Origin: Sphingobacterium sp. UT-1RO-CII-1
Lineage (GTDB): Bacteria > Bacteroidota > Bacteroidia > Sphingobacteriales > Sphingobacteriaceae
Length of the DNA: 64,000 nucleotides
Direction: 5' to 3'
NCBI RefSeq assembly: GCF_026711005.1
Contig: NZ_JAPPVJ010000002.1
Span: 434,001-498,000 of the forward strand
Shown: positions 5,551-28,583 of the stretch, piece after piece
Layout: every line of letters begins with the position of its first letter
How positions within the stretch are numbered: position 1 is the stretch's first letter
Made by a program: the position numbers and the translations under genes
The notes under the pieces: model-generated
Told to the model about the DNA's origin: nothing
The model's input: only the letters and a program-made list of their open reading frames with translations
Database searches by the model: none

Positions 5551-5571
5551 GGACTATTAAGTACAAAAATC

Positions 5572-7500
5572 ATGAGAAAATTATTATTCATAATACAATT
5601 TATATTTCTCGGCTTGACCTTAGGTTCTTGTGAGAAATTTTTAGACAAATTACCAGACGATCAGCTTCGGGAAGATGAAGTTTTTACACGCTTCAACAAA
5701 GTAAATGAGTTGGTGACGGACGTGTATAGTAGAGCAAAAAACTCCAATCAACCAATATCATGGTTTTATCATTTCTCTAGCGCAGCCATTACAGATGAAG
5801 CTGAAGGATCAACAGTAGAAGGAAATATTACAAACCGATACAATACTGGCGACTGGAATATAAATTCTTTACCGGGTGATAACGGTCAATTCTGGAATAC
5901 CCTTTACGACGGAATAAGACGGACAAATATTATCTTAGAAGGTATCCAAAACTACAACACACCAGATGATATTTTAGAACCTGGATCCTTGAATTATCGA
6001 ATAGGTGAAATACAATTTATGCGTGCTTATTTTCATTACCTGTTGATTCGTATTTATGGAGAAGTACCTTACATTGATCGGGTAATTAAGGCAACAGATA
6101 ATATGGATTTCGAAAAAGAATCATTCCATGCTGTGGTAGAAAAAATAGTTAAAGATGCGGAGGAAGCCTATCAGAAATTACCGGATCGCTGGCAAGGGCA
6201 AAACTTTGCACGTGTTGACAAAGGATCCGCTTTGGGGTTAATTGCTACAGTAAGATGGATGGCTGCAACCCCATTATGGAATGGAGCCGCCGCAAAAAAC
6301 TACGATGGAAACCGCCAATTCGAATCTGAATATAGTGCAGCAAAACCAGAAAGATGGGAAAAAGCTAGAGATGCAGCGAAAGCAGTCTTAGATATGAAAT
6401 TGACTACTGGTGCCAAACGTTACAACTTGTATCAAAAATATAGTAATTCGGACTATAATGATAGTGGTGGCCAAAACACCAGTAATTCTACTGTAAACAC
6501 CCGCTTATGGCAAATGTACTATGAAATGGAGGCCTTTAAAGAGGAATACGTTCTATTCTTTACTAAATACAAATGGGATGGTTGGTTTGGCGATGTTTAT
6601 CCTCCCAGCCGGGGAGGTGGAGCGCGTCAACAGCCTGTTCAAGAACAAGTAGACGAGTACGAATATATTGGTCCGGATGGTTTTGGATATCCTATTTATG
6701 ATAAACGCGCAGCAAAAGATGGTTATGATGACGGGAACCCATATTTATCAGTGAAAAGAGATCCGCGTTTTTATAGAGATATTATATTTCATGGGGCAGC
6801 ATTCAGGGATGGTAGTAACAAACCTTCTACGTTGAACATTGCATCAGGAAGTGATGCAATAGGTGCATCAAATGCTACAAGAACTGGCTACTATCTCCGT
6901 AAATTTCTACATGAAGATTGGAATAGAAACTCGAGTGTAACAATTAATGCTCCACCTGTGTGGCGATTACCAGACTTTATTTATATATACGCTGAAGCAG
7001 TCAATGAATTGGCTGGTCCCAATAAGGAAATATACGACTTAGTGAACCAGGTGAGAAGTCGTTCGTTTATGGCACCAATGCCACCCGAAACAATGGGAAA
7101 TCAAAAGCTTATGCGAGATTATATTTATCGCGAACGCCGAGTAGAGTTTTTCTATGAAAATAGAAGAGCATTTGACTTCCGTTTATATTTAGAACCTACT
7201 TCCAACGAAGAGTCTGCCAAAGAAAAACTCTTTAATACAGCAGGAGCTAATGGAAATGAACGCTCTATTAATTATTGGAAAGCAGGACATGGCCCATACC
7301 CAAAAAATCAGCGTATGATTAACGGCATGAGACCAATTGAAGACCCAAATGGAAAGATTTTGATTGGTGATAAAAAATATAGAATGGAAAGATTTCTAGT
7401 TGAAACACGTGTATTTAACACTCCACAACATTATTTATTTCCCATAATGGATGCCGAAATAAAGAAAACACCGTCATTAACACAGAACCCAGGCTGGTAA
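5572..7500 (+). CDS. SusD/RagB family nutrient-binding outer-membrane lipoprotein
   Basis: A 642-residue surface lipoprotein that caps the SusC channel and binds the substrate. The N-terminus carries a lipoprotein signal with lipobox LGSC, so Cys20 is the expected lipidated residue, followed by EKFLDKLPDDQL, a typical SusD opening. TPR-like helical segments occur through the N-terminal half (IGEIQFMRAYFHYLLIRIYGEVPYIDR), and the conserved C-terminal region includes RDYIYRERRVEFFYENRRAFDFR, the RagB/SusD signature. It follows susC by 21 bp. A strong hairpin at 7540-7573 ends the transcript. At 642 residues it is somewhat longer than average for the family. Confidence 0.96.
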   Translation: MRKLLFIIQFIFLGLTLGSCEKFLDKLPDDQLREDEVFTRFNKVNELVTDVYSRAKNSNQPISWFYHFSSAAITDEAEGSTVEGNITNRYNTGDWNINSLPGDNGQFWNTLYDGIRRTNIILEGIQNYNTPDDILEPGSLNYRIGEIQFMRAYFHYLLIRIYGEVPYIDRVIKATDNMDFEKESFHAVVEKIVKDAEEAYQKLPDRWQGQNFARVDKGSALGLIATVRWMAATPLWNGAAAKNYDGNRQFESEYSAAKPERWEKARDAAKAVLDMKLTTGAKRYNLYQKYSNSDYNDSGGQNTSNSTVNTRLWQMYYEMEAFKEEYVLFFTKYKWDGWFGDVYPPSRGGGARQQPVQEQVDEYEYIGPDGFGYPIYDKRAAKDGYDDGNPYLSVKRDPRFYRDIIFHGAAFRDGSNKPSTLNIASGSDAIGASNATRTGYYLRKFLHEDWNRNSSVTINAPPVWRLPDFIYIYAEAVNELAGPNKEIYDLVNQVRSRSFMAPMPPETMGNQKLMRDYIYRERRVEFFYENRRAFDFRLYLEPTSNEESAKEKLFNTAGANGNERSINYWKAGHGPYPKNQRMINGMRPIEDPNGKILIGDKKYRMERFLVETRVFNTPQHYLFPIMDAEIKKTPSLTQNPGW

Positions 7501-7539
7501 AAGTATTATAAAGAATTTCCCAGTAATTAGTTAAGTTAG

Positions 7540-7573
7540 ATAGCCGTCTCACAATTTTTGTGAAGACGGCTAT
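7540..7573. terminator. Bidirectional terminator between susD and the TlpA-like gene
   Basis: ATAGCCGTCT (7540-7549) pairs with AGACGGCTAT (7564-7573), extended by CACAA/TTGTG around a short T loop. It separates two convergent genes and includes the stop codon of the minus-strand gene, which is common for shared terminators. Confidence 0.75.
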
Positions 7574-8730
7574 TCTTCTTTAAGAATGGCATTTATTTTT
7601 GTTACATCAAGTCTTCCTCCAGTTTTATAGTAAAGAATTTTTCCGTTACGATCTAACAGAACTACTCTTGGTATACTGGTAATGCCTAATCTTTCACTTA
7701 ACACCCCTCCTCTATCAAAACTATGATCCCAATGCATATTGTGTTCTTTCACACCCTGGATAAAACTTGTTGAGTCACGGTCAATAGAAATACCGACTAT
7801 TTTAAGTTTATCAGTGGAGATCATATCCCTTAATCTTTTGATATCGGGAATCTGCTGGATGCATGGAGCGCACCAAGTCGCCCAAAAATCCAATAATACA
7901 AAATCTTCTTTTTGATCTTTATGAAAAATTGGAGTTCCATAAATATCCAAAAAATCTAAATTTGGAATCACTTCATTCTCCTTCAGCACCACAGGGGAAA
8001 TTTTTTGTTTAAAAAAAGCAACTATCTTACGTCCTTCTTCTGTAGACCTAAACTGTTCGGGAAAAGTATTATTGTAATATCTTAATAACGCTATATAATG
8101 CTCAGTGTCAACTTCTATAAAATCTGATAATCCGAGAATTTGATCTTTAAAATAATAAAATGAGAAAAAATCTTCCGCATATGGAACAAGAAAATCCATT
8201 GACTTGGTATTCATAATTTTAACCAAATCATTAAGCACATATTTAATAGAGTCATTAGTTCTAAACTCATGACCATGTTTTATCATAATAGCATTCAAAC
8301 TTGCACGTTCCGAAGCGTGATTTTCGAGCAATTGTCCATATATAGTATTTAGAGTAGTATCGTAGACATCGATAAGATCTTGATCGTTATCCACATATAA
8401 AGCATTATCGGTTTCACCTTGGTTCAGAAAAAAATCAAATACTATTTTATCACTATCCATTAAAAATCGTTTATGATTTTTCCCCTCATAAGAGACCGAT
8501 AACGCAGGATGAGTGGTATAAATAGGTTTACAAAAGGTAAGGGACAAATCCACTTGTTTTAAATCTATGTGCTCTAGCACGATACCGTCATCGAAGTGGA
8601 TAACCAATTTATCTTTGTCGATATCATGAAAATTCATTTGAACTTTAACTGAGTCTTGCCCATATAGAAAATTATTAACCAAAAGAAAGATGATTAAGAA
8701 AGCTGTATACTGTGGTCGTGCAAAAAGCAT
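7570..8730 (-). CDS. TlpA-like thiol-disulfide oxidoreductase, secreted
   Basis: A 386-residue exported protein with a thioredoxin fold at the C-terminus. Residues 1-25 are a signal peptide ending in FLYGQ. Residues about 26-245 are a helical and beta domain of the kind often found before the thioredoxin fold in Bacteroidota (no function assigned). Residues about 250-386 are the AhpC/TSA-Redoxin type domain, with active site WCAPC (cysteines 287 and 290) and the cis-proline motif SIPRVVLLDRNGK. It probably reduces disulfides in periplasmic proteins. It stands alone, convergent with susD, and shares its terminator. Confidence 0.9.
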   Translation of the reverse strand: MLFARPQYTAFLIIFLLVNNFLYGQDSVKVQMNFHDIDKDKLVIHFDDGIVLEHIDLKQVDLSLTFCKPIYTTHPALSVSYEGKNHKRFLMDSDKIVFDFFLNQGETDNALYVDNDQDLIDVYDTTLNTIYGQLLENHASERASLNAIMIKHGHEFRTNDSIKYVLNDLVKIMNTKSMDFLVPYAEDFFSFYYFKDQILGLSDFIEVDTEHYIALLRYYNNTFPEQFRSTEEGRKIVAFFKQKISPVVLKENEVIPNLDFLDIYGTPIFHKDQKEDFVLLDFWATWCAPCIQQIPDIKRLRDMISTDKLKIVGISIDRDSTSFIQGVKEHNMHWDHSFDRGGVLSERLGITSIPRVVLLDRNGKILYYKTGGRLDVTKINAILKEE

Positions 8731-8914
8731 AAGTTATTTTATATAAATGAGATCAATCTATTAACGTCTTAATAAAACTAGGTTAAATCTTTATTATATT
8801 ATTTTCAATAACATATTTTAACACCCCATATCAGCTTTAACAAGCTCCATTCTTTACAGTTTTTAATAGCAAGAGGACCACAATAAATACCGAATCGACA
8901 ATTTTAACAAACAA

Positions 8915-9421
8915 CTAATTCAACTTCAAAATCAATTTGCACTGATCACAGGATACTGGACCATTATGCTTGGTATAAACATCAAAATGAACGGTATTTA
9001 GCATTTTATCTAAGATTTCGTCGCCCGTACTTTCTATTTCCGTCTGCACAGCTTGCATCCGAAACGACCCATTATTAATCATTTGCAATACATAGTAACC
9101 AAAATATTCTCCGCTACTTAAAACAAGAGTATCCTCTAGGATATGCCATTTATAGCTTTCCGTTTTTCCTATGTAACATGTATCTAAATCTCCTTCGTAA
9201 TAGGTGTGATCGACAGTACCATCTGATTTAAAAACAAAATTTTGAGACAGCCTACAATCATTAAATTGCTTGATAACAACTTCCGCATTATCTATAAAGC
9301 CTGATTTTTCCAGTTTCCAAACACCTAATAATTTTTCGGGATCAACACTTTGAGCTATCGCTTTATTGAAAGAAACCAAACAGCAGAGTATTGGTATTAT
9401 TATAAAAATTGAATGTTTCAT
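8915..9421 (-). CDS. Secreted lipocalin-like small protein of unknown function
   Basis: A 168-residue exported protein. A GTG three codons upstream is possible, but the ATG at 9421 gives a cleaner signal peptide (MKHSIFIIIPILCC ... NKAIAQ). The mature part opens with PEKLLGVWKLEKSGF, the LLGxWxLxxS pattern of Bacteroidota lipocalin-like (calycin) domains, and continues as alternating beta strands with FVFKSDGTVDHTYYEG. Several cysteines (CRLSQ, DTCYIG, CDQCKL) could form disulfides, consistent with a periplasmic location and with the thioredoxin-like gene next to it. Ligand and role are unknown. Confidence 0.6.
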   Translation of the reverse strand: MKHSIFIIIPILCCLVSFNKAIAQSVDPEKLLGVWKLEKSGFIDNAEVVIKQFNDCRLSQNFVFKSDGTVDHTYYEGDLDTCYIGKTESYKWHILEDTLVLSSGEYFGYYVLQMINNGSFRMQAVQTEIESTGDEILDKMLNTVHFDVYTKHNGPVSCDQCKLILKLN

Positions 9422-9637
9422 ATCGTACACAAAAGTAATATTTAGCTTTGATGAGAAATATCCCGATTATCAGGTAATTTGTGAAAATTATAATATGTCA
9501 AAAATGGAATGTTTGACAACATCAAAATAAAAAAAAGTAAACTAGAGAAACAATGGAGCGAAATATTATAGTTTCGTAGTGTGATTTACAAACAAAAAAC
9601 GCAGCTCATTTGTATTTATTAAAGGTAAATACATACT

Positions 9638-10723
9638 ATGATTACAACCTTACTTACTTTATCTATACTACTCATTTTATTAAGCTCCCTTTCTTTTATC
9701 CAACATCAACACTGGGTGTTTCGTGTACCTGAGTTTTTAAAATTGCAAATATTAGTATTACAGGTTCCCACGGTTATTATTCTTTTTATAGTAATGGAAA
9801 AAGGAACGCTATTTTGGCTATTACAAAGTGTACAAACTATTTTAATAGCTTATCATGCCTATATATTAAGCCGATATACGAAGTTTTGGAGAACACAAAA
9901 AATCAAAAAATCGCCAACAGCATCAGAAAAAATAAAAATAATCTCTTGTAATGTGTATCAGTTTAATAGAGAGTTTAATCGCTTCATAGAGCTCATTAGA
10001 ATAGAAAAACCAGATATATTTATCACCATGGAAAGCAACAGTGAATGGGAAATGGCGATGAAAGAACTGGAAGAAGACTACCCTATACAACAAAAGGTAA
10101 CTTTAGAAAATACGTACGGCATGCATTTCTACACAAAGCTAAAAGTAAACCATATTGAAACCCATTACTTTGTTGCAGATGATGTGCCGAGTATAGAAGC
10201 TAAACTTGAAACAAAAGACGGACATAGGTTTCTCTTCTTTGGAGTCCACCCACCCCCACCAAGCCCAACAGAAGAAGAGACTTCTAAAGAACGCGATGGC
10301 GACTTACTCAGTGTCGCAAAAAAAGTTCGCAACAGTGCTTTGCCTGTAGTCGTTATTGGAGATTTCAACAACGTAGCTTGGGCAAAAAGCTCAATTTTAT
10401 TTAGTAAAACGAGCAAACTAATAGACGGAAGGATAGGTAGAGGAATTTTAGCTACTTTCCATGCAAAATATTGGTTTTTTAAAATTCCTTTAGACTTATT
10501 TTTTCATAGCCCTGATGTTTATATAGATTCATTGAAAATACTTCCCCCCGTAGGTTCTGATCATTTCCCCGTAAGCTGCACCTTTCATATTGACTATCAA
10601 TCTAATCACCAAGAAGAGTTTGTAGAAGACTTAGATGAAGAACAAAAAAAGGAGGTAGATGAACTAATTGAGGAAGGTAAAGAAGAAGAGAGTGATAATA
10701 GAGAACAAGTAGCCTCTGAATAA
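9638..10723 (+). CDS. Membrane-anchored endonuclease/exonuclease/phosphatase family protein
   Basis: A 361-residue protein with two or three N-terminal membrane helices (residues about 1-20, 34-52 and 55-75) followed by an EEP fold (about 100-325). Family motifs are visible: the SCNVYQFNREF strand, KPDIFITMESNSEWE with the metal-binding Glu, FFGVHPPPPSP (catalytic His), VIGDFNNVAW (Asp/Asn) and GSDHFPVSCTF (final Asp-His). The C-terminal 35 residues are a highly acidic tail rich in Glu. Such proteins cleave phosphodiesters of nucleic acids, inositol phosphates or sphingomyelin; the substrate here cannot be told. It stands alone. Confidence 0.85.
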   Translation: MITTLLTLSILLILLSSLSFIQHQHWVFRVPEFLKLQILVLQVPTVIILFIVMEKGTLFWLLQSVQTILIAYHAYILSRYTKFWRTQKIKKSPTASEKIKIISCNVYQFNREFNRFIELIRIEKPDIFITMESNSEWEMAMKELEEDYPIQQKVTLENTYGMHFYTKLKVNHIETHYFVADDVPSIEAKLETKDGHRFLFFGVHPPPPSPTEEETSKERDGDLLSVAKKVRNSALPVVVIGDFNNVAWAKSSILFSKTSKLIDGRIGRGILATFHAKYWFFKIPLDLFFHSPDVYIDSLKILPPVGSDHFPVSCTFHIDYQSNHQEEFVEDLDEEQKKEVDELIEEGKEEESDNREQVASE

Positions 10724-10843
10724 CTGGAAGAAAATTATACAATGTTTGATGTACTTTTCTCAACAAAAAAATAATAAAAGCTCCTTTTTAAAATTTAATT
10801 ATTATACTTGCACTATAATAATAGAAAGACCTCTCTAAAAAGA

Positions 10844-12608: not shown

Positions 12609-13055
12609 TTAAAAATCTAGTCGAAGTGGGTTAGAAACATGATCGTTAGATATTTTTGACACAGCTTTCCACCCCTCATCATATCTAATGTAAGACAGGT
12701 AATCAGTTATTATCAATTTATTATCTCTGTAAAACTGTGTTTTAACGATAGCTGTATTTCCTGTAATATCCATTATATTAATCGTGTACTCTAAGCATCT
12801 AATACCAGAGCTCATTTTTATCGGGTCTTTCTTATACGCTTTCACCATAGCAATCCAGTCTGAAAGAAAAAGACGTTGTAAAGCACTTCCTTTCGCCACT
12901 AGAATAGCAAACTCTGGGTGAAAGCCCTGAGCCATACTGTCTACATTCATACTGTTTAATGCTCCATCTATAAATGTCTCTTTAACAAGTACCCTTAGTA
13001 CTTCCCTATCAAGCGTAATATCTTCTTTTGTTTTTAGGTTGTTCTTTTTGTTCAT
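12609..13055 (-). CDS. NTF2-like / lumazine-binding-type small protein
   Basis: A 148-residue cytosolic protein with the NTF2-like (SnoaL/nuclear transport factor 2) pattern: an N-terminal helix (REVLRVLVKETFIDGALN), the MDSMAQGFHPEFAIL segment, and C-terminal strands NTAIVKTQFYRDNKLIITDYLSYIRYDEGWKAVSKIS, the WKI(V/S)K-like end of such domains. The ATG at 13055 is preferred over a TTG one codon upstream. It is divergent from merR, and the shared 190-bp intergenic region carries palindromic MerR-type sites, so it may be that regulator's target. Function is unknown. Confidence 0.75.
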   Translation of the reverse strand: MNKKNNLKTKEDITLDREVLRVLVKETFIDGALNSMNVDSMAQGFHPEFAILVAKGSALQRLFLSDWIAMVKAYKKDPIKMSSGIRCLEYTINIMDITGNTAIVKTQFYRDNKLIITDYLSYIRYDEGWKAVSKISNDHVSNPLRLDF

Positions 13056-13171
13056 CAATTTCTATAAATGCTATTTTCAGTCTTGTTATCATCTTGCATA
13101 CTCATTAGTGTTAATAATATGGATATCACCATTGTTATTAGCACGCTTAAATTGCATAAATTCATCATAAA

Positions 13172-13245
13172 TTGTAAATAAACTACAATTGCAAAATAAA
13201 GGCTTTGTTTTTATATTTACAACATAAATTGTAAATAAATTACAA
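13172..13245 (+). promoter_or_regulatory. Cluster of TTGTAA/TTACAA palindromes before merR
   Basis: Three overlapping dyads share one half-site: TTGTA..TACAA at 13172-13188, TTTACAA..TTGTAAA at 13216-13235, and TTGTAA..TTACAA at 13229-13245. The flanking context (cataaattgtaaataaa) is directly repeated 57 bp apart. A candidate -7 box TATATTTA lies at 13213-13220, so the right-hand dyads cover the start site. This is the expected layout for an autoregulated MerR-type operator shared with the divergent NTF2-like gene. Confidence 0.6.
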
Positions 13246-13247
13246 AA

Positions 13248-13571
13248 ATGAAAAAAACAGAAGAACAAAGGGATCTTTCTTTTGACTTTGATTTCTTAAA
13301 TAAATTAGTCGTGGGAATAGGTGAAGTATCTCAGATAACAGGCATTCCGACTCGTCAAATACGTTATTGGGAAGAAAAAGGTATCGTGCTAAGTTTGACG
13401 GGAGAAGAAGGTAAAAATAGACGCTACGATTATGAAAACATCAAAAAAATGTTACTAATAAAGGAACTAATGGATGAGGGATATACGTTAGATGCATCTG
13501 CTGATAAAGTTAAGAAACGCATGGAAATGATTGAGGAGACTCTCAACAAACTGCAAAAGAAAAAGATTTAA
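13248..13571 (+). CDS. MerR family transcriptional regulator
   Basis: A 107-residue one-domain MerR-type regulator. The winged helix-turn-helix is clear at residues about 23-92: VGIGEVSQITGIPTRQIRYWEEKGIV, then GKNRRYDYENIKKMLLIKELMDEGYTLDASADKV. A short C-terminal coiled coil (KKRMEMIEETLNKLQKKK) serves dimerisation. There is no metal- or ligand-binding C-terminal domain and no cysteine, so this is a small MerR lacking an obvious effector pocket. It is divergently arranged with the NTF2-like gene, and palindromic sites abut its start codon, suggesting autoregulation. Confidence 0.9.
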   Translation: MKKTEEQRDLSFDFDFLNKLVVGIGEVSQITGIPTRQIRYWEEKGIVLSLTGEEGKNRRYDYENIKKMLLIKELMDEGYTLDASADKVKKRMEMIEETLNKLQKKKI

Positions 13572-13630
13572 AAACAGACATTTATCACGACAATAGCAAT
13601 ACTACTTAAATGGGTATAAGTTTTCATATG

Positions 13631-13673
13631 TGCATAATTACTTTATGAGCTCGCTAGTTCGGTTTTTTCTTTT
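13631..13673. repeat. Dispersed intergenic motif, copy 2, after merR
   Basis: Related to copies at 12448-12488 and 29362-29405. Core TTATGAGCTCGCTAGTTCGG is followed by TTTTTT. Here GAGCT/AGTTC forms a short hairpin with one G-U pair directly before the T run, so this copy could terminate merR transcription. Confidence 0.4.
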
Positions 13674-13781
13674 ATCTATCATACGGAATACTCCTTTGTG
13701 TTTTTGTATAAAAGAAACATGAAAATATCATATGAAGTACAGCAATAATGTCAAGTTTTACCTCAAAAAGAATAAGCGACC

Positions 13782-15426: not shown

Positions 15427-16509
15427 TCACAAAGCATCCCGCATAAAACGTAACCAGTTGCCATGTGCTATATTAGTCAAGTCTTTTTGTTTATAGCCTC
15501 TATCCCTTAAAATTGGAAATACCTTCTGAATATCAGCAATAGTTTCTAAATCATAAGGGCATTGCTCTTTACCAAAAGCACCATCCAAGTCACTACCTAC
15601 TGCGACATGATCGGTGTTTCCTGCAAGTTGGCAAATATGATCAATATTATTGGCCATAATCTCCATATTACAACCTGTACCTATAGGAGTAGATGTTCCC
15701 CTCACCCAATTAGGTACCATCATCCAAGCATCTAATGCAACGCCAATAACAGCATTACGATCAATAAGAGCTTTAATCATCTCATCGCTAAATTGTCTAT
15801 TATGATCAACAAAAGTACGACAGTTATTATGACTAGCCCATACCGATCCTTGGTAGCGATTCAATGCATCCCAAAAAGCATCATCATTTAAATGAGTAGT
15901 ATCTAATATCATATTTAAACGATCCATCTCTTTTAAAAGGACTACACCTGCCTTATTCAATTTACCGCTTGAGTCTGTTCCATTTGCATACCTACCTGGT
16001 CCATAATGTGCTGGCCCTATTGCCCGAAGCCCATAATTATATGCTCTTTCTACATAACTTATATCCACCAAAGAATCTGCTCCTTCTAGACTTAAAATAT
16101 AACCGATAGGAACTTTAGTCGTATCGGCTTCCGTAATCCATTCAGTAATATGTCGATCCAATTCTTCTTTACTGCAAATCATTCGCATATGTCCATCCGC
16201 TTCCATCGCTCTATACCAGGCGAGTTGTCCTTGCGTTTGTGCCCATGCTTGTTCAGGAGAATACCAGCCAGGAAGAAGGCTAGTAGGCTCAACAAATCGG
16301 GCAATCTGCGTAGCTACAACTAAGCCTATATTCCCTCGTCGCAACTCTTCAAATGTGATAGTGGCTTTGCCCCGGTCAGGCTTATCAACCATATTTGCTT
16401 CTCTCTTATTAAGCTCATGAATAGATATCCGTAAATCCCGATTCCATTCCATCGCATTCATACTAAGATCAAGATGTCCGTCAATTAAAAAAAGCTGTTC
16501 TTCTTTCAT
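15427..16509 (-). CDS. Dipeptidase, peptidase family M19
   Basis: A 360-residue zinc dipeptidase of the renal-dipeptidase (M19) family. The ATG at 16509 is chosen over a TTG at 16542 that overlaps the preceding gene. Visible metal and fold motifs: LIDGHLDLSMNAM (HxD), YILSLEGADSL (Glu bridging ligand), AIGPAHYGPGRYA (His), WASHNNCRTF (His) and VAVGSDLDGAFG (Asp). M19 enzymes cleave L-Xaa-D-Xaa or D,D-dipeptides. It is the last gene of an apparent four-gene operon (gntP-like, ridA-like, D-threonine-aldolase-like, dipeptidase), starting 4 bp after the stop of the preceding gene, which supports a role in releasing amino acids, perhaps D-amino acids (inference). Confidence 0.92.
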   Translation of the reverse strand: MKEEQLFLIDGHLDLSMNAMEWNRDLRISIHELNKREANMVDKPDRGKATITFEELRRGNIGLVVATQIARFVEPTSLLPGWYSPEQAWAQTQGQLAWYRAMEADGHMRMICSKEELDRHITEWITEADTTKVPIGYILSLEGADSLVDISYVERAYNYGLRAIGPAHYGPGRYANGTDSSGKLNKAGVVLLKEMDRLNMILDTTHLNDDAFWDALNRYQGSVWASHNNCRTFVDHNRQFSDEMIKALIDRNAVIGVALDAWMMVPNWVRGTSTPIGTGCNMEIMANNIDHICQLAGNTDHVAVGSDLDGAFGKEQCPYDLETIADIQKVFPILRDRGYKQKDLTNIAHGNWLRFMRDAL

Positions 16510-17623: not shown

Positions 17624-18094
17624 TTAATCCTCATGTAACTCAAATAGTGCTTCAATTTCCACAGGAATATTATCTGGGAGTGACCCAAACCCCACAGCAC
17701 TACGTGTCCCTATACCATTTTCCTCGCCCCAAACCTTGGCAAACAGCTCGCTACAACCATTAATTACATAGGGATGCTGCTCAAAATCATCAGTACAGTT
17801 GACCATACCTAGAATTTTAATAACCCTTTTGACTCTATTCAGAGAACCAAAGTTTGTTTTAATCGTTGACAACATAGTCAAGCCAACTTGTTGGGCCGAA
17901 CGTTTCCCAGCCTCAATATCTATATCTCTGCCAATACGTCCTATGATAAGACTTGCATCGTCTTGAACAGGGCCATGACCGGATAAATACAAATATTTAC
18001 CATCAATAACATAGGGTTTATAAACTCCTTTAGGTGCCGGTGCGGGAGGTAATGATAGACCTAATTTTTCAAACTCATGATCTGCATTGTACAT
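17624..18094 (-). CDS. RidA family (YjgF/YER057c/UK114) enamine/imine deaminase-like protein
   Basis: A 156-residue RidA-like protein. Typical features are the N-terminal APAPKGVYKPYVIDGKYLYLSGHGPV strand, the helix DIEAGKRSAQQVGLTMLSTIKTNFGSLNRVKRVIKILGMVN, and the C-terminal GIGTRSAVGFGSLPDNIPVEIEALFEL, where R and E line the active-site cleft. RidA proteins hydrolyse 2-aminoacrylate-type intermediates; related members act in amino acid breakdown. Its place between a GntP-type transporter and a PLP enzyme, with gaps of 27 and 3 bp, indicates a dedicated clean-up role in that pathway. It is longer than the 125-130 residues of classical RidA. Confidence 0.9.
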   Translation of the reverse strand: MYNADHEFEKLGLSLPPAPAPKGVYKPYVIDGKYLYLSGHGPVQDDASLIIGRIGRDIDIEAGKRSAQQVGLTMLSTIKTNFGSLNRVKRVIKILGMVNCTDDFEQHPYVINGCSELFAKVWGEENGIGTRSAVGFGSLPDNIPVEIEALFELHED

Positions 18095-18121
18095 TGTGTG
18101 TATTATTTAGTGTATGTAATA

Positions 18122-19450
18122 TTATATTAAAATTGATAAGAATAACACGGCAAGCAACCCAACAATTGCTACGATCGCCTCCATAACTGACCACGATCGT
18201 AAGGTGTCTTTCACCGTCAGTCCAAAATACTCTTTAAACATCCAAAATCCAGCATCATTAACATGTGAAAACATCAGGCTGCCTGCTCCTATGGATAGTA
18301 CCATTAAGTTCGGGTCGACACCCGAGGTTTTACTCAGTGGTAATAATACTGTTGCTGCTGTCAGTGCTGCAACAGTAGCTGAGCCTACACACCCCCGTAT
18401 GATAGCGGTAATGAGCCAAGCTAAAATTAAAGGATGTATAGCGAGCGACTGCAAGTTTTCTGCTAACAGAACACTCACTCCACTCGTCTCCATTACTTCT
18501 TTAAAGACTCCTGAACCTGCTATGATTAAAAGTATCATAGCAATATCTTTAACAGCCTCCGTGTAAATGTTCATCACTTTAGCAATACTACGACCTTGCT
18601 TGACACCGAGAGTTACTGTCGCAAAAACAATGGCTATTAGCATCACAATAGTTGGTGATCCTAAAAATAAAATAATTTCGTGCGCAAAATTATTAGACTT
18701 AGGTATAAAATAGGGAAGCACAGTAAAAAGTATAAGCAAAAATACGGGAAGCAATGCGGTAACAAAGCTTTTCCATGTATTGGGCACACCATACTTGCTT
18801 TCCTCTTGATCAAGCTGAACGGGTTGAAAAAAACCTTCATTAACACTTTTTATTTTCCTTAATGTTCTTCCGAATAAAGGTCCGCCCACAACAATAGCGG
18901 GTATTGCCACAAGTATACCATAGATTAAAGTTAAGCCCATATTCGCATCAAACAGGACTACAAGAGCAACTGGAGATGGATGTGGAGGAATAAAACCATG
19001 TGTAACTGATAAAGCGGCTAACATAGGCAAACCTATATAAACCGCAGGCAGTTTGTATTTATAAACGATAGAGAAAATTAAGGGCACTAATAAAACGAAA
19101 CCCACACCGTAAAATAAAGGTATCCCCACAACAAAACCGGTAAAGGCCATACCCCATTGTAGGTATTTAACCCCAAATAACTTAACCATTACTGTTGCAA
19201 TATTCTCTGCAGCACCGCTTTCTGCTATTATTTTACCAAGCATAGCTCCCAAAACAATAATCAGTGTTAGGCCTCCCATAATATTACCTATCCCCTTTTC
19301 GACAGTACTAGGTATCATATCCAGGGGAATGCCCAGCGCAACTGCAGCCAATATGGATACGATTAAGAAAGATAAAAAAGCATCAACCTTAAGATAGCTT
19401 ATACTAATAATTAACAATAGTAAGCTCAGAAGTACAATTATAAATACCAT
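18122..19450 (-). CDS. GntP family transporter (gluconate/D-serine permease type)
   Basis: A 442-residue inner-membrane transporter with about 12-14 hydrophobic segments spanning the whole length. GntP-family motifs are present: IGNIMGGLTLIIVLGAMLGKIIAESGAAENIA near the N-terminus, GFIPPHPSPVALV in the middle and a glycine-rich GVGFVLLVPLIFS. The family imports gluconate, fructuronate, or D-serine (DsdX) with protons. Because the next genes encode RidA, a D-threonine-aldolase-like enzyme and a dipeptidase rather than a gluconate kinase, a D-amino acid or related hydroxy-acid substrate is more likely (inference). It heads the operon. Confidence 0.9.
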   Translation of the reverse strand: MVFIIVLLSLLLLIISISYLKVDAFLSFLIVSILAAVALGIPLDMIPSTVEKGIGNIMGGLTLIIVLGAMLGKIIAESGAAENIATVMVKLFGVKYLQWGMAFTGFVVGIPLFYGVGFVLLVPLIFSIVYKYKLPAVYIGLPMLAALSVTHGFIPPHPSPVALVVLFDANMGLTLIYGILVAIPAIVVGGPLFGRTLRKIKSVNEGFFQPVQLDQEESKYGVPNTWKSFVTALLPVFLLILFTVLPYFIPKSNNFAHEIILFLGSPTIVMLIAIVFATVTLGVKQGRSIAKVMNIYTEAVKDIAMILLIIAGSGVFKEVMETSGVSVLLAENLQSLAIHPLILAWLITAIIRGCVGSATVAALTAATVLLPLSKTSGVDPNLMVLSIGAGSLMFSHVNDAGFWMFKEYFGLTVKDTLRSWSVMEAIVAIVGLLAVLFLSILI

Positions 19451-22994: not shown

Positions 22995-23621
22995 ATGCTT
23001 TTACATCAGAAAAAGTCATACTATATATTAACAGCTTTTCATATTGTGATTATTGCCGCCAGCAATTACCTGGTTCAATTTCCAATAGAAATCTATAAAT
23101 TTACCACAACTTGGGGAGCTTTCACTTTTCCCTTTATTTTTCTAGCCACAGATCTGACCGTCCGTGTTTTCGGTGCTCAACTAGCTCGAAAGATCATTTT
23201 CAAGGCTATGCTGCCCGCCTTGCTTGTTTCTTATTTTATCACTGTAGGCTTCCGAGAGGGCGTTTGGGCGGGTTGGTCTTCTTTTTATACCTTCAGTATT
23301 TTTTCAATCCGCATCGTACTAGCGAGTTTTTCAGCTTACGTTGTAGGACAGATTATGGACATCTATGTATTCAACAAATTACGACAAGCTAAATATTGGT
23401 GGTATGCCCCAATAGCTGCTGCCATTTTTGGAAATCTTATAGATACATATAGTTTTTATTACATAGCTTTTTACAAAGGTTCTGATAGCTTCCTTGCAGA
23501 AAATGTATTTGAATTGGCTACAGTAGACTATGCATTCAAAATGTTGATAAGTACATTATTTTTCCTTCCACTATACAAAGTGCTTTTAAACAGAATTATC
23601 ATCAGCATAGGCCCCAAATAA
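22995..23621 (+). CDS. yhhQ: 7-cyano-7-deazaguanine / 7-aminomethyl-7-deazaguanine transporter, YhhQ family
   Basis: A 208-residue inner-membrane protein with six hydrophobic segments. It matches the YhhQ/DUF165 queuosine-precursor transporter family: FTFPFIFLATDLTVRVFGAQLARKIIF (conserved T-D-L after helix 3), SFSAYVVGQIMDIYVF and AAIFGNLIDTYSFYYIAF. The protein imports preQ0/preQ1 for queuosine modification of tRNA. A preQ1-I-like structure precedes the start codon by 8 nt. The last 82 codons plus 43 bp of downstream DNA are duplicated at 27236-27527 (four substitutions). Confidence 0.92.
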   Translation: MLLHQKKSYYILTAFHIVIIAASNYLVQFPIEIYKFTTTWGAFTFPFIFLATDLTVRVFGAQLARKIIFKAMLPALLVSYFITVGFREGVWAGWSSFYTFSIFSIRIVLASFSAYVVGQIMDIYVFNKLRQAKYWWYAPIAAAIFGNLIDTYSFYYIAFYKGSDSFLAENVFELATVDYAFKMLISTLFFLPLYKVLLNRIIISIGPK

Positions 23622-23664
23622 TTCCTTAAGCAACTCGTTGATAAACAAATACAATTGCATGTAA
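23373..23664 (+). repeat. 292-bp direct repeat, left copy (3-prime end of yhhQ)
   Basis: The bases 23373-23664 recur at 27236-27527 with four differences, all transitions (288 of 292 identical by direct comparison). The left copy holds codons 127-208 of the intact yhhQ gene, its stop and 43 bp beyond. The distance between copies is 3863 bp. Confidence 0.95.
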
Positions 23665-24174
23665 TTAAATTATAAGGTCTATTGTATAATATCACGTTTA
23701 CTCTACTTTTAATAATCGTCCTAAGGTTATAGAAATAACTAAACAATAGCTAATCCGCATAGCTTATGAATAATAATCTTCTTGCAAGATCACCTCTAGG
23801 TTTCACTAAACATGATGTTAATTACGTTAATACAAAACTATAAAAAACCTTTAAAAAAGATCCTTTGCAAAAGAGATGATATAAGAATGTTTATCCATAG
23901 AAACTTTTACTTTTCTATACAATGCCCGAGATAATTTTGTCTACTAAAAGAATATTTCGTTACCTAGATAACTAAAAATCAGAATAAATAGTTATTAAGA
24001 CTGTACTTCAGTATTTTTGTTTTTCATTTCTTTTTCGTATCTTGAAAAAAGAAAATTATAAGCGCTAGATATCTTAAGATTAAGAACTACTTTATTCTTT
24101 GTTATTGCCGATTCCCTATAGCCCTTTAAAACATTGACAATAAGATTATTTAATTGTTTTAAAATATAACTATC

Positions 24175-24858
24175 ATGAAAAATTTCTTTTTCCTATGTGC
24201 ATTATTGTTTGGAACAATAAGCGCAACAGCACAACTAAAAATTTGGCCTAACGGCTATGTAGCAACTAATAACACAAGTACCACACCTATCTATCCCGTT
24301 CAATTTTTTATAAATACAGTGGGAATGACGGGAACTAGCCGCCCTCTGGTATTTGCCATTGGTGCCACTGATCCGCGCATTCAAACCACTTCAGGCGGGA
24401 AAATTGTATTCTACAACACCGCCAACAATGCCCATATCGATATTGAAGTACGATCGGTTATCACCACGTCAGATGCAAAACTCAAGACCAATGTGGCTGC
24501 CATAGGGGCAAAAAGTAGAGCATTGGCGATGGTCAAGCAACTTAAAGGTGTGGAGTTTGATTTTATCGATGATGTAAAGAGCAGAAAGCATGCTGGTTTC
24601 ATAGCGCAGGATTTGGAGAAAGTGTTACCACACCTGGTATCAACAGACGACAGTGTGGGCAATAAAGCTATAGATTACCAGGCGATCATCCCTTATTTGG
24701 TAGAAGCGATTAAAGAACAGCAGGTGCAGATTGACCAGTTAAAGCAAAAACTTTCTGCATCGACTACCGATACAAATGGTATAGAAAAAAGGCTAGCAGG
24801 AGAAGCGACCCGAGACGAAAAGCGATTAATACATCTTGCGATGAATCCGCAAGAATAA
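24175..24858 (+). CDS. Secreted protein with C-terminal peptidase S74 (intramolecular chaperone) domain
   Basis: A 227-residue exported protein. Signal peptide at residues 1-20 (FGTISATAQ). After a short beta-rich region, residues about 98-200 carry the S74/endosialidase-chaperone domain: SDAKLKTNVAAIGAKSRALAMVKQLKGVEFDF, HAGFIAQDLEKVLPHLV, IDYQAIIPYLVEAIKEQQVQIDQLKQKL (the final coiled coil). This domain trimerises fibre-like proteins and then cleaves itself off; it is known from phage tail fibres and also from Bacteroidota surface proteins. No phage genes are nearby. It is followed after 16 bp by the S8 peptidase gene and lies within the repeat-bracketed segment. Confidence 0.85.
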   Translation: MKNFFFLCALLFGTISATAQLKIWPNGYVATNNTSTTPIYPVQFFINTVGMTGTSRPLVFAIGATDPRIQTTSGGKIVFYNTANNAHIDIEVRSVITTSDAKLKTNVAAIGAKSRALAMVKQLKGVEFDFIDDVKSRKHAGFIAQDLEKVLPHLVSTDDSVGNKAIDYQAIIPYLVEAIKEQQVQIDQLKQKLSASTTDTNGIEKRLAGEATRDEKRLIHLAMNPQE

Positions 24859-24874
24859 AGAAAGGAGAAACGTT

Positions 24875-26650
24875 ATGAAAACGCTATATTTAACTTTCTT
24901 CTTTTTGCTGAGCATACTGACGATGGGCTATGCGCAGGAGAATTTTTATTATTATAATGGAGAGAAGAAATCAATCAAATTTCATCCCCGTCTATATTAT
25001 TTTGCTCTAGAAGACAGCATACAACCTCTAAAAGCCCTTTCGGACATGGGCGTGCAAATTAATGACCGAGGTGTATATACAACAAAAGAAAAAAAACGAT
25101 ATTGGGTAGTCGTTGACATTGGCATAGAAAAAAGCTCCAAAGATATCCAACAGCTTAGGTCATTGCCCAACATTTCTTATATTGGCCCCGTGATAGACAT
25201 TAATGACACTTCGCACGTCGCTATATCTCAATTTTTTCACATAGAAATAGCAAACAAAAGTCAATTAAACCAAGTCATCGAGCAAGCTCAAAAAAAAGGA
25301 GCAGATTATGTTGGCTCTATTCCCTATACAGATGGATGGCACACTTTTGAGAGTAAAGGTTTAAAGTCGAGTTTAGCAATAGCTAACCAACTTTACGAAA
25401 CAGGGAAAATAAAGGAGATTTCGCCAGACTTCATGTTTGATTTCGCACCTTTCTTTAACAAGAAGAGAGATAAACATTTTTTCGGAAACTACATTCAGGC
25501 ATGCACGAACGACCCTCAATTCCCACAACAGTGGGGCCTGCGGAACACCAATGGGATAGATGTAAAAGCATGCGCCGCCTGGGGTATAACGAAAGGATCA
25601 CTATCAACAAAAGTAGCCGTTTTGGATACAGGTATAGATCCAAGCCTCACGGAATTTGCGACAAATTTGTCGTCAACATCTTTTGACGCACAGTCGGGAA
25701 CCTCGCCTGCTGTTGTCTACTCCAACGACCATGGAACACATGTCGCTGGAATAATAGGGGCAAATCAAAACGCCTTCCTCATCTCAGGAATAGCGCCATC
25801 CGTAGAATTAATGGCAGTAAGTCACTCGCTTGCCGTAATACCTAACATCTCTGCACAACTTGCCTCAGGACTAAATTGGGCATGGCAAAACGGAGCCGAT
25901 GTTATAAATAATTCCTGGGGAGACCAAGGAGGCGCCTATTATGGCAACCTGCAAAGTGCCGTACTAGAAAGCGCAATTAATAGTGCACAAAACAGTGGCA
26001 GAGGAGGATTAGGAACTATTGTGGTTTTTGCATCGGGCAACTATGCTCCCGTAATGGACTACCCTGCTACTTACTCGCCAAACTCACTAACTGTAGGCTC
26101 TATCACCTCAAGTGGCAGTCGTTCTTCATTTTCGGGATATGGTGCTGCGCTAGATGTCGTCGCTCCTGGTTCTTATATCCTATCAACCACATTTGGCAAC
26201 ACCACGAATTATAAAGATGGTACCTCCATGGCGGCCCCCTTTGCTTCTGGCTTAGCAGGTCTTATCTTATCCATCAAACCAACCTTAACGCGATTACAAG
26301 TTAATAACTTTATCGAAAGCACCGCACAAAAGGTAGGTGGCTACAGCTATACAACAACCGCAGGTCGTCCAAACGGCACCTGGAATAACCAAATGGGCTA
26401 TGGTTTGATAAATGCACATGCAGCACTTGTTGCTGCCGGAGGTGGTGGCGGCACCTGTACACCGTCGACATCGCCAACAATAATTAATGGAGTAAGTTAC
26501 ACTAAAAATACAACGCTCAACGGATGCAATTTTGAGTTTAAAAACTCTAGCGTTACAAGCGGATCGTCATTAACGGTGATCGCAAGTGGATATGTGTTGC
26601 TATCATCAAACTTTACAGTATCAAGTGGTAACTCGCTGATTATACCCTGA
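24875..26650 (+). CDS. S8 family subtilisin-like serine peptidase, secreted
   Basis: A 591-residue exported subtilase. Signal peptide to about residue 21 (LTMGYAQ), an N-terminal pro-domain of about 170 residues, then the catalytic domain with all three triad motifs: VAVLDTGID (Asp), NDHGTHVAGIIG (His) and DGTSMAAPFASG (Ser). The oxyanion Asn region is ASGNYAPVMDYPA. The last 60 residues after a GGGGG linker are a beta-rich repeat (LTVIASGYVLLSSNFTVSSGNSLIIP) of a kind seen at the ends of Bacteroidota secreted proteins; no type IX secretion C-terminal domain is recognised. Unusually for this window, a strong Shine-Dalgarno-like AAAGGAG lies 7 bp before the ATG. Confidence 0.93.
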   Translation: MKTLYLTFFFLLSILTMGYAQENFYYYNGEKKSIKFHPRLYYFALEDSIQPLKALSDMGVQINDRGVYTTKEKKRYWVVVDIGIEKSSKDIQQLRSLPNISYIGPVIDINDTSHVAISQFFHIEIANKSQLNQVIEQAQKKGADYVGSIPYTDGWHTFESKGLKSSLAIANQLYETGKIKEISPDFMFDFAPFFNKKRDKHFFGNYIQACTNDPQFPQQWGLRNTNGIDVKACAAWGITKGSLSTKVAVLDTGIDPSLTEFATNLSSTSFDAQSGTSPAVVYSNDHGTHVAGIIGANQNAFLISGIAPSVELMAVSHSLAVIPNISAQLASGLNWAWQNGADVINNSWGDQGGAYYGNLQSAVLESAINSAQNSGRGGLGTIVVFASGNYAPVMDYPATYSPNSLTVGSITSSGSRSSFSGYGAALDVVAPGSYILSTTFGNTTNYKDGTSMAAPFASGLAGLILSIKPTLTRLQVNNFIESTAQKVGGYSYTTTAGRPNGTWNNQMGYGLINAHAALVAAGGGGGTCTPSTSPTIINGVSYTKNTTLNGCNFEFKNSSVTSGSSLTVIASGYVLLSSNFTVSSGNSLIIP

Positions 26651-26726
26651 AGAAGTATTTGCTCATTCTGGAAATTTAATATAAATCGTACATTTACATC
26701 AAGTTAAAACTCATATACAATTTATT

Positions 26727-27173
26727 ATGATAAAAACACTACTATATCCTGTCCTATTGTTCAGCTTATTTATTTTGCATTCATGCAACAAGGAAGAAGT
26801 CATGCGAGAAAATCAAGAGCGTATAATACCAAAAGAATTGCTCGGAAAATGGTATAGTCAGATGCCGGAAAGCGGATTCTATGAAATCGACTTTACACCG
26901 CAAGCTATCCGTTTTACGACGTCGGCAGGAACGATAGACGCTAAAACTTCGGAATGGTCCAATTACCGTTTTGAAAATGACCACACCCTGTCCATACGTC
27001 GTTTTGATGAGCACCATCAACAAGATGCTGATTTTAAACTTCCATTTGTAATATCGGATGACGGTCTCCTACGGATTAATCATCTCGCACCTAGTGTCGC
27101 TAACGTAATTGGAAAATTTCCAGGAGACAGAAGCTGGTATGGAGATATCTGGTTTAGCCGTAATAAGAAGTAA
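26727..27173 (+). CDS. Small lipoprotein of unknown function
   Basis: A 148-residue lipoprotein: the N-terminal hydrophobic segment ends in LFILHSC, with Cys20 as the lipidation site, then NKEEVMREN. The body (LLGKWYSQMPESGFYEIDFTPQAIRFTT ... FRRDEHHQQ-like and IWFSRNKK) has the GKWY opening and alternating strands of lipocalin-like domains, but I cannot assign a family. It lies 76 bp after the S8 peptidase in the same direction and could be an inhibitor or partner of it (speculative). Confidence 0.6.
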   Translation: MIKTLLYPVLLFSLFILHSCNKEEVMRENQERIIPKELLGKWYSQMPESGFYEIDFTPQAIRFTTSAGTIDAKTSEWSNYRFENDHTLSIRRFDEHHQQDADFKLPFVISDDGLLRINHLAPSVANVIGKFPGDRSWYGDIWFSRNKK

Positions 27174-27235
27174 GAACTACCGAAAACAATGTCCATAAAG
27201 AACGATGAATCGAAACCTGATTCAGCACAGAATTA

Positions 27236-27484
27236 AACAAATTACGACAAGCTAAATATTGGTGGTATGCCCCAGTAGCTGCTGCTATTTTTGGAAATCT
27301 TATAGATACATATAGTTTTTATTACATAGTTTTTTACAAAGGTTCTGATAGCTTCCTTGCAGAAAATGTATTTGAATTGGCTACAGTAGACTATGCATTC
27401 AAAATGTTGATAAGTACATTATTTTTCCTTCCACTATACAAAGTGCTTTTAAACAGAATTATCATCAGCATAGGCTCCAAATAA
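27236..27484 (+). pseudogene. Truncated duplicate of yhhQ (C-terminal 82 codons)
   Basis: This is the open reading frame of yhhQ codons 127-208 plus stop, without a start codon or the first 126 codons. Three of the four substitutions change the protein (Ile to Val, Ala to Val, Pro to Ser near the end) and one is silent. With no start codon and lost membrane helices it cannot make a working transporter. Confidence 0.85.
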
Positions 27485-27527
27485 TTCCTTAAGCAACTCG
27501 TTGATAAACAAATACAATTGCATGTAA
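27236..27527 (+). repeat. 292-bp direct repeat, right copy
   Basis: Second copy of 23373-23664. Differences from the left copy are one A to G and three C to T. It starts abruptly 62 bp after the lipoprotein stop codon and ends 48 bp before the ATG of the Crp/Fnr gene. Confidence 0.95.
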
Positions 27528-27575
27528 AACAATTTTTATATAAGTTTGAATAGTAGGCACATATTACCAAACCTT

Positions 27576-28163
27576 ATGACAAGAGATATACTATTTGAGG
27601 TGTACCAACACCCGGTACTCACAACACAAAACTTGGAAGATATATGCGATGCTCACGAACTTAAATACTATAATAAAGGCGATTATCTTCTCCAAGAAGG
27701 ACAGGTAGCAAATGAATACTTTATTGTAGAACAAGGACTAATAAGAACATTTGTATATCATTATGAAGGCGAAGATATAACAACAGACTTTTCTACTAGA
27801 AAAGATTTAGTGATTGAAGTAAGTTCAATTTTTTCCCGCATTCCGACTAATGAAAATATGCAATGTCTTACAGATACACAATTGTGGAAAATAAGTTTCG
27901 CTGATTTTCAGAAGTTATTTGACAGAATTCCTGCATTTAGAGAATGGGGGCGTTCCTGGATGGCATCAGAATTATATAAAAACAAAAAACGTGCAACCGA
28001 AATGATTACACGCCCTGCTACGGAAAGATATCTTCAATTGATGAAAAGTCAGCCAGAACTGGTGCTTCAATCTCCCTTAAAACACCTAGCAAGTTATCTA
28101 GGTATTACCGACACTTCTTTAAGTCGAATACGAAAGGAAATTGTTAACAATAAAAAAATATAA
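27576..28163 (+). CDS. Crp/Fnr family transcriptional regulator
   Basis: A 195-residue regulator; the ATG at 27576 is preferred over an in-frame TTG at 27546. Residues about 20-115 form the cyclic-nucleotide-binding beta-roll (YYNKGDYLLQEGQVANEYFIVEQGLIRTFVYH), but the phosphate-binding cassette (normally RSA) is not conserved (FSTRKDLVIEVSS), so cAMP is unlikely to be the ligand. The C-terminal helix-turn-helix is the short Bacteroidota type: SPLKHLASYLGITDTSLSRIRKEI. It has no Fe-S cysteines. It lies just to the right of the right-hand 292-bp repeat and is convergent with a VOC protein, with a 3-bp gap. Confidence 0.88.
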   Translation: MTRDILFEVYQHPVLTTQNLEDICDAHELKYYNKGDYLLQEGQVANEYFIVEQGLIRTFVYHYEGEDITTDFSTRKDLVIEVSSIFSRIPTNENMQCLTDTQLWKISFADFQKLFDRIPAFREWGRSWMASELYKNKKRATEMITRPATERYLQLMKSQPELVLQSPLKHLASYLGITDTSLSRIRKEIVNNKKI

Positions 28164-28166
28164 ACT

Positions 28167-28583
28167 TTAATGTGCACTATAATTAACCATCCAATTAACC
28201 CCGTACCTATCTGTAAAGGATCCAAAATAATCTCCCCAAAACATATCTTCTAAAGGCATCTCAATTTTTCCACCAGCAGATAGCCCTTTAAAAAATCGTT
28301 CAGCTTCTTCTCGACTATCCACGAATAAAGAAATATAATTATTATTACCAACCTTAAGCACATGACCCAGCGACGGAATTATATCTGATGCCATTAACAA
28401 TTGCCCATTAGATAACGGTAGAGAAATATGCATAGCGCAATTCATCTCCTCTTCTGACAGCCCTGTTACATCCGGCACTTCTGCCATACGTTGGATAGAA
28501 AGCTCTCCACCAAAAACAGATTTATAAAAAAGAAAGGCTTCTTCTGCGTTTCCTTCAAAATTCAAATAGGGGTTTAATTGCAT
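28167..28583 (-). CDS. VOC family protein, PhnB-like
   Basis: A 138-residue protein of the vicinal oxygen chelate superfamily, PhnB/DUF1428-like subgroup. The beginning NPYLNFEGNAEEAFLFYKSVFGGELSIQRM and the ending MFWGDYFGSFTDRYGVNWMVNYS are diagnostic of PhnB-like proteins. Metal ligands of classical glyoxalases are not all present, as is usual in this subgroup, and the role is unknown. It is convergent with the Crp/Fnr gene. Confidence 0.9.
   Translation of the reverse strand: MQLNPYLNFEGNAEEAFLFYKSVFGGELSIQRMAEVPDVTGLSEEEMNCAMHISLPLSNGQLLMASDIIPSLGHVLKVGNNNYISLFVDSREEAERFFKGLSAGGKIEMPLEDMFWGDYFGSFTDRYGVNWMVNYSAH

Follow-up and report, generated by a model that had tools for sequence, protein, structure and literature searches.

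A secreted-protease islet beside a yhhQ-type gene of Sphingobacterium was probably added by insertion-duplication of the gene end

When a circle carrying the 3′ fragment of a gene enters the resident gene by one crossover, the product is the Campbell-type insertion-duplication. Gene 3′ ends also serve as attachment sites of integrative elements, as icd does for e14. For gene islets that carry neither integrases nor transposases, the route of entry is often unclear. Here, we analyze a stretch of 64,000 nucleotides (the window; contig NZ_JAPPVJ010000002.1, positions 434,001 to 498,000, assembly GCF_026711005.1) from Sphingobacterium sp. UT-1RO-CII-1, in which an islet of genes for an S74 (chaperone of endosialidase) protein, an S8 subtilase and a small lipoprotein lies beside a yhhQ-type transporter gene, bracketed by two copies of that gene's end. 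In the Escherichia coli experiments outlined in PMC3240628, 56 of 60 clones carried a duplication product, and in the 14 that were sequenced 109–950 bp of the homologous gene end had been duplicated; the outline attributes this to linear DNA that was partly degraded or trimmed, ligated to a circle and integrated by a single crossover, and describes homology-facilitated illegitimate recombination (HFIR) as generally deleting resident DNA, not duplicating it. Transformation is summarized in PMC3784515 as yielding tandem duplications by interchromatid integration. We favor the reading that the islet was added beside yhhQ by insertion-duplication, with a probability of roughly 0.6.

The two repeat copies, each 292 bp long, lie in direct orientation on the forward strand at 23373–23664 (left) and 27236–27527 (right), 3863 bp from start to start, and differ at four sites, all transitions (A, C, C and C on the left; G, T, T and T on the right). 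Alignment and a repeat search thus confirm the near-identical pair reported in the earlier note; the alignment breaks off sharply at both ends. The final 82 codons of the 208-aa yhhQ-type gene (22995–23621, forward strand; Pfam Vut_1, PF02592, E = 1.5e-32), its stop codon and a further 43 bp make up each copy. The left copy belongs to the intact gene, and the right copy, which is open across its 82 codons and has no start codon at its head, is a headless fragment, as had been proposed. No other pair of at least 60 bp was reported by the repeat search of the window, a genome search for the repeat returned just these two copies, and a chance origin is excluded because of the length of the repeat. 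Three of the four transitions change a residue (I/V, A/V and P/S). At the A/V site, both related yhhQ proteins (genomes G083 and G069; 69% and 68% protein identity) have Ala and the right copy has Val, so it is the right copy that changed there; at the remaining three sites, the relatives show less clearly which copy changed. An assembly artefact might be suspected in a draft genome of 30 contigs, but the four differing sites, the distinct flanks on both sides and the position of the pair inside an 852-kb contig make it extremely unlikely.

Between the copies, Pfam matches and a lipobox establish the gene content that had been read from the translations, all on the forward strand: an S74 protein of 227 aa (24175–24858; Peptidase_S74, PF13884, E = 6.9e-16), a secreted S8 subtilase of 591 aa (24875–26650; Peptidase_S8, PF00082, E = 5e-48) and a small lipobox lipoprotein of 148 aa (26727–27173; no Pfam match), predicted to form a beta-barrel and a candidate protease partner or inhibitor. 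The G+C content of these genes is 0.40–0.43, against 0.362 for the window and 0.255 for the 510 bp of AT-rich DNA that precede them (23665–24174), within which similarity to S. haloxyli starts near 24016. The right end of the islet (27174–27235) runs directly into internal transporter sequence at the junction 27235/27236. After the right copy comes a forward-strand Crp/Fnr-type regulator (27546–28163; PF00027, E = 2.9e-14), which we take as the resident gene after the islet; relatives of it and of the glyoxalase gene that follows (28167–28583) occur together in G083 (locus L041), with one gene between them. The islet therefore has an intact gene on one side and, in direct orientation, a partial end of the same gene on the other, the arrangement by which insertion-duplication is recognized. 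It seems to be a small cluster of foreign genes for a secreted protease, gained in one recombination event that copied the gene end.

In such an event, the incoming DNA, from a putative donor, would have carried the 3.57-kb islet together with a piece of the same yhhQ gene end. Joining of its free ends would give a putative circle of about 3863 bp, consisting of the 292 bp of gene end and the islet. A single crossover of the RecA type within that gene end would then bring this circle into the chromosome, leaving the order intact gene, islet, headless gene-end copy and old neighbor (the Crp gene). Which bases of the left copy came from the donor we can only infer. A linear fragment would give the same product by one-sided recombination and an illegitimate join to the sister copy. 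This second route, in which no circle forms and the gene end pairs before an illegitimate join or template switch leads back to that gene on a sister copy, as in HFIR-like events or transformation merodiploids, we consider unlikely: transformation is stated in the PMC3784515 summary to make tandem duplications through interchromatid integration, but HFIR as outlined in PMC3240628 generally deletes rather than duplicates. Sequence alone does not separate the linear event from the circle.

A different origin, in which a site-specific integrative element used the gene's 3′ end as its attachment site and has since lost its integrase, would look alike: the gene end would be restored at the left border, and its displaced tail would lie at the right one. 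We regard it as very improbable. None of the three main islet ORFs matched a recombinase in Pfam (the other frames listed there, of 61–83 aa, lay outside the scan), and no motif is common to the seven border pairs that were compared by eye, both of which argue against such an element; in addition, the target genes differ from case to case, and the borders of the islet in S. haloxyli have no long repeat.

The distribution of the genes points to movement of the islet. Among 93 genomes of the genus, yhhQ was found in three, this one included (E ≤ 1e-20), and in the other two it has different neighbors and no adjacent islet. The S8 protein of the islet occurs in two of 399 genomes of the family (E ≤ 1e-150). 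The nearest relative is S. haloxyli, for which G027 and the named record L052 have the same DNA. There, the counterparts of S74, S8 and lipoprotein are 69, 84 and 33% identical, respectively, and are flanked by glycosyltransferase-like genes, without yhhQ. An intergenic 144-bp pair, 81% alike and 10 kb apart, lies around the wider islet region there, and a survey of 182 kb of S. haloxyli for similar scars returned a duplicated gene as the sole pair. The islet thus occurs sporadically and has come to lie at more than one site, and the straightforward interpretation is horizontal transfer. A plasmid search gave two records with distant S8 matches and, at the DNA level, only short matches to the yhhQ region in four records; a search of viral contigs gave one distant S8 match.

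The repeat and the gene order at yhhQ are observed directly, as is the same anatomy at other islets. Scanning genome contigs that carry S8 genes gave 79 loci, in three of which (L057, L072 and L074) a gene-end copy brackets S8; these represent two independent events. The first, L057 from Flavobacterium daejeonense, has the order intact HAD gene (PF08282), S8, lipoprotein, headless HAD tail and purC-like gene (the last name assigned by eye), and its tail copy extends over 458 bp with 92.6% identity. In the four nearest HAD relatives of L057 (L174–L177), purC follows HAD after ~230–370 bp; this spacing is too short for an islet, so the site is empty. The insert-free resident site, unseen for yhhQ, is therefore seen in this Flavobacterium parallel. 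Upstream of purC, L057 and L175 look similar by eye. Within the wider set of 30 loci (L174–L203), purC lies within the short flanks in 14, and no purC was seen in the other 16. Elsewhere among the S8 loci, repeats bracket S8 in L064, L085, L100 and L109 without being gene-end copies with this anatomy, and L087 holds a tail-like pair (655–1027/2354–2724) that does not bracket S8. One Dysgonamonadaceae contig (L103) carries repeated units of S74, lipoprotein and S8 genes, some of them decayed, in which the lipoprotein gene and the S8 gene share 4 bp.

The second event is found in Aquimarina, where L083 and L119 have the gene order X–S8a–Z and L072 and L074 have X–S8a, a copy of the X tail, three short secreted-protein genes and S8b. 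In L074, S8b is followed by Z; the L072 contig stops within S8b, and L075 begins inside this stretch and continues through S8b to Z. Compared with L119, L072 is 88.0–93.3% identical in all 12 windows across the X body (3040–6639) and 96.7–100% identical in 12 of the 13 windows across the islet (6939–10831), the other window being at 93.3%; compared with L083, the islet is more uneven (91.3–99.3%). The step in identity in L072 is located at the end of the X tail, and we interpret it as the trace left by crossing over within the gene end. The tail copies lie at 6550–6838 and 11195–11483 in L072 and at 6550–6839 and 11188–11476 in L074, where the X tail is a mosaic whose later part resembles L083 and L119. 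The copies differ at only 3 sites in A. megaterium, against 23 in Aquimarina sp. AU58; it looks as though the A. megaterium copies have been partly converted, and as though part of the L072 pattern is conversion between copies. The proposal that high identity at yhhQ reflects a recent event or ongoing conversion is accordingly possible, the Aquimarina pair being conversion-like. The middle of S8a in L074 (8432–9331) is ~80–90% identical to L072, L083 and L119. The three short genes before S8b had been considered as S74 proteins; the S74 profile gave no match, hence the neutral name of short secreted-protein genes. Two of them were scanned against Pfam, one giving no match and the other a below-cutoff match to a phage tail-fibre family.

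We also surveyed 2.05 Mb of the Sphingobacterium genome (contig C1 in full, C14 from 1 to 732000 and C21 from 1 to 362000) for pairs of at least 100 bp, at least 85% alike and 1.3–25 kb apart. With arrays included, 33 direct pairs stand against 0 inverted pairs; at the same thresholds, the 79 S8 loci and 7 further stretches gave 14 direct and 1 inverted (L215 and L216 being redundant in this count). Inspection of the genome yielded five clean bracketed islets, with gene names from Pfam: the yhhQ islet and four others. A 128-bp copy of the tail of an FtsX permease gene (98.4% identity; L223:15027–15154 and L224:4742–4869, C1 87027–94869) lies 7.7 kb onward from the gene, whose end carries a terminator-like hairpin, as judged by eye. 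An intergenic direct repeat of 245 bp (98.8%; L276:6208–6452 and 15765–16009, C1 672208–682009) brackets a third SusCD islet, which has the gene order of the two in the FtsX slot and adjoins several small genes. Part of a Gfo/Idh gene (267 bp, 91.4%; L232:12204–12469 and L233:7273–7539, C1 246204–259539) recurs 13 kb apart around a gene group with a SusC-type receptor. Finally, the head of a Gfo/Idh gene with upstream DNA (387 columns, 94.8%; L265:17993–18375 and L266:8530–8915, C1 485993–494915) forms a direct pair that encloses an 8-kb group of enzyme-like genes.

The FtsX slot bears on a rival origin for such loci, in which gene end and islet were duplicated in tandem and the second islet was then lost, so that the second gene end was left before Crp. 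In favor of this explanation, DNA from outside is not required, S8 units are repeated in tandem in L103, and this genome abounds in direct repeats at short distances, including those in arrays. However, it calls for another deletion at an exact position, gives no reason to expect the step in identity seen in Aquimarina, and fails at the FtsX slot, where two collinear four-gene SusCD islets that are only 24–43% alike are separated by the 98.4% identical tail copy. Tandem duplication would give like islets; as judged from these sequences, the slot must hold two unlike islets, one stacked on the other by addition. Of the two routes offered in the earlier note, single-crossover insertion, for example of a ~3.86-kb circle, is thus well supported by the Flavobacterium empty site, the Aquimarina step and the FtsX stack, whereas duplication with later loss cannot explain the FtsX stack and retains a small chance at the yhhQ locus itself.

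Several observations weigh against insertion-duplication as the origin of the islet. The arrangement suggested as a check, yhhQ directly before the Crp/Fnr gene without the islet, was not found in any genome searched, and in the two other genus genomes with yhhQ the gene stands beside other genes. The islet borders in S. haloxyli have no long repeat. Most of the 79 S8 loci have no such gene-end scar around S8. No gene-end copy was found in 8 further S8 stretches, of which L213, L215 and L216 repeat the earlier loci L054, L086 and L062; among these stretches, L211 and L212 show just weak intergenic repeats (69 bp, 84%, and 118 bp, 76%, respectively) ahead of S8 and of the gene that follows. In Aquimarina, L074 falls to 79.7–93.5% identity with L119 in four islet windows, inside S8a, perhaps through conversion with the neighboring S8b, and for the ~320 bp that separate the islet from the tail copy the only match was the orthologous place. 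Lastly, many of the 33 direct pairs lie in arrays (10 at C1 354–363 kb and 5 at C14 671–686 kb) that tandem duplication alone could produce; because arrays also grow in this way, the excess of direct pairs is not wholly due to insertion.

The repeats of L211 (7900–7968/10793–10861) and L212 (7923–8040/10701–10817; reverse complement of the loci), from two Flavobacterium-group genomes, are promoter-like. The array at C1 354–363 kb (L238 and L259) consists of small secreted proteins (MKKKILGAVAVIAIAAVA...) in repeated segments of 350–650 bp. On C14, a 1-kb direct repeat of 94.8% identity (L162:8195–9188 and 12720–13723) contains small ORFs only, and a headless fragment lies 2.5 kb before an intact gene for a 311-aa protein (L139:15496–15993 and 17964–18449, 92.8%). 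The 311-aa family recurs in this genome; its pair at C14 141 kb is a less clear case, as is C21 215–230 kb. An Rpn-type name considered for the family was not confirmed, there being no Pfam match.

Functionally, the cargo is most likely a secreted protease paired with a dedicated lipoprotein in the outer membrane that serves as its partner or inhibitor. A small lipoprotein gene adjoins S8 in 13 of 77 S8 ORFs (of at least 480 aa; L216 repeats L062), compared with 5 of 320 control ORFs in the same loci, and an S74-profile match lies within 1.5 kb of S8 in 10 of 77 S8 ORFs (a slightly different set). Matches of the window S8 among solved structures are subtilisins and their relatives, with mirolase among them. 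The model of the window lipoprotein is a beta-barrel (pLDDT 71.8), and Foldseek places potempin E of Tannerella forsythia first (8ehc, E = 4.7e-3); in a second fold comparison, lipocalins lead or tie, with Z = 9.1–8.6 for ranks 1–5 against 7.8 for the potempin, so the fold is generic, and no potempin was present among the sequence matches of the lipoprotein. A suspected likeness of some of the lipoproteins to dentilisin PrcB was not upheld, with no PrcB Pfam match in the ten scanned. The KLIKK proteases of T. forsythia are preceded by lipoproteins (potempins) that are said, in the portion of PMC7296668 devoted to them, to inhibit them. The cargo resembles these protease/potempin pairs, although the relationship is not proven: as in that portion of PMC7296668, a secreted protease adjoins a small lipoprotein gene and presence is variable, and mirolase is a shared point of reference; unlike in the KLIKK pairs, the lipoprotein gene here is downstream of the protease (24875–27173), reversing the order, and an S74 gene is added. 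Our literature searches found nothing on the combination of S74, subtilase and lipoprotein in Bacteroidota and, by title, nothing pertinent on antagonism.

A gene pair known from an oral pathogen may have counterparts in environmental Bacteroidota, as the cargo suggests. A special link between scar and S8 is unproven; S8 is bracketed in only 3 of 79 loci, and other cargo is bracketed in this genome, so that the gene-end scar also marks other added gene groups here and in other Bacteroidota. Such a scar is readable: it shows which side recombined, which neighbor is resident and that DNA was added and not replaced, and counting scars against inverted repeats offers a simple genome-wide test. As a tentative extension, on which we place less than even confidence, this Sphingobacterium and other Bacteroidota might often gain genes additively by circularization and a single crossover, leaving gene-end copies of 0.1–0.5 kb and stacks of unlike islets at one slot, with protease/lipoprotein and SusCD groups as typical cargo and protease–inhibitor pairing perhaps aiding islet persistence.

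Set beside known systems, the yhhQ locus has the same product as the Campbell-type insertion-duplication, from which it differs in that its circle would have arisen by chance and would lack replication genes. No literature was found on genomic islands bounded by partial duplication of a flanking gene in Bacteroidetes. As in the E. coli case outlined in PMC3240628, an intact gene and a partial copy bracket the insert, with copies of 109–950 bp there and of 128–458 bp in the gene-tail cases here; unlike in that case, where a laboratory plasmid fragment was used, the islets described here are natural and the circle is putative. Like the additive and replacement flexible genomic islands summarized in PMC4033161, the islets vary at a fixed slot between conserved neighbors; unlike the additive islands of that summary, which are tied to integrases or transposases, none of which were seen here, they carry the gene-end copy as a visible scar.

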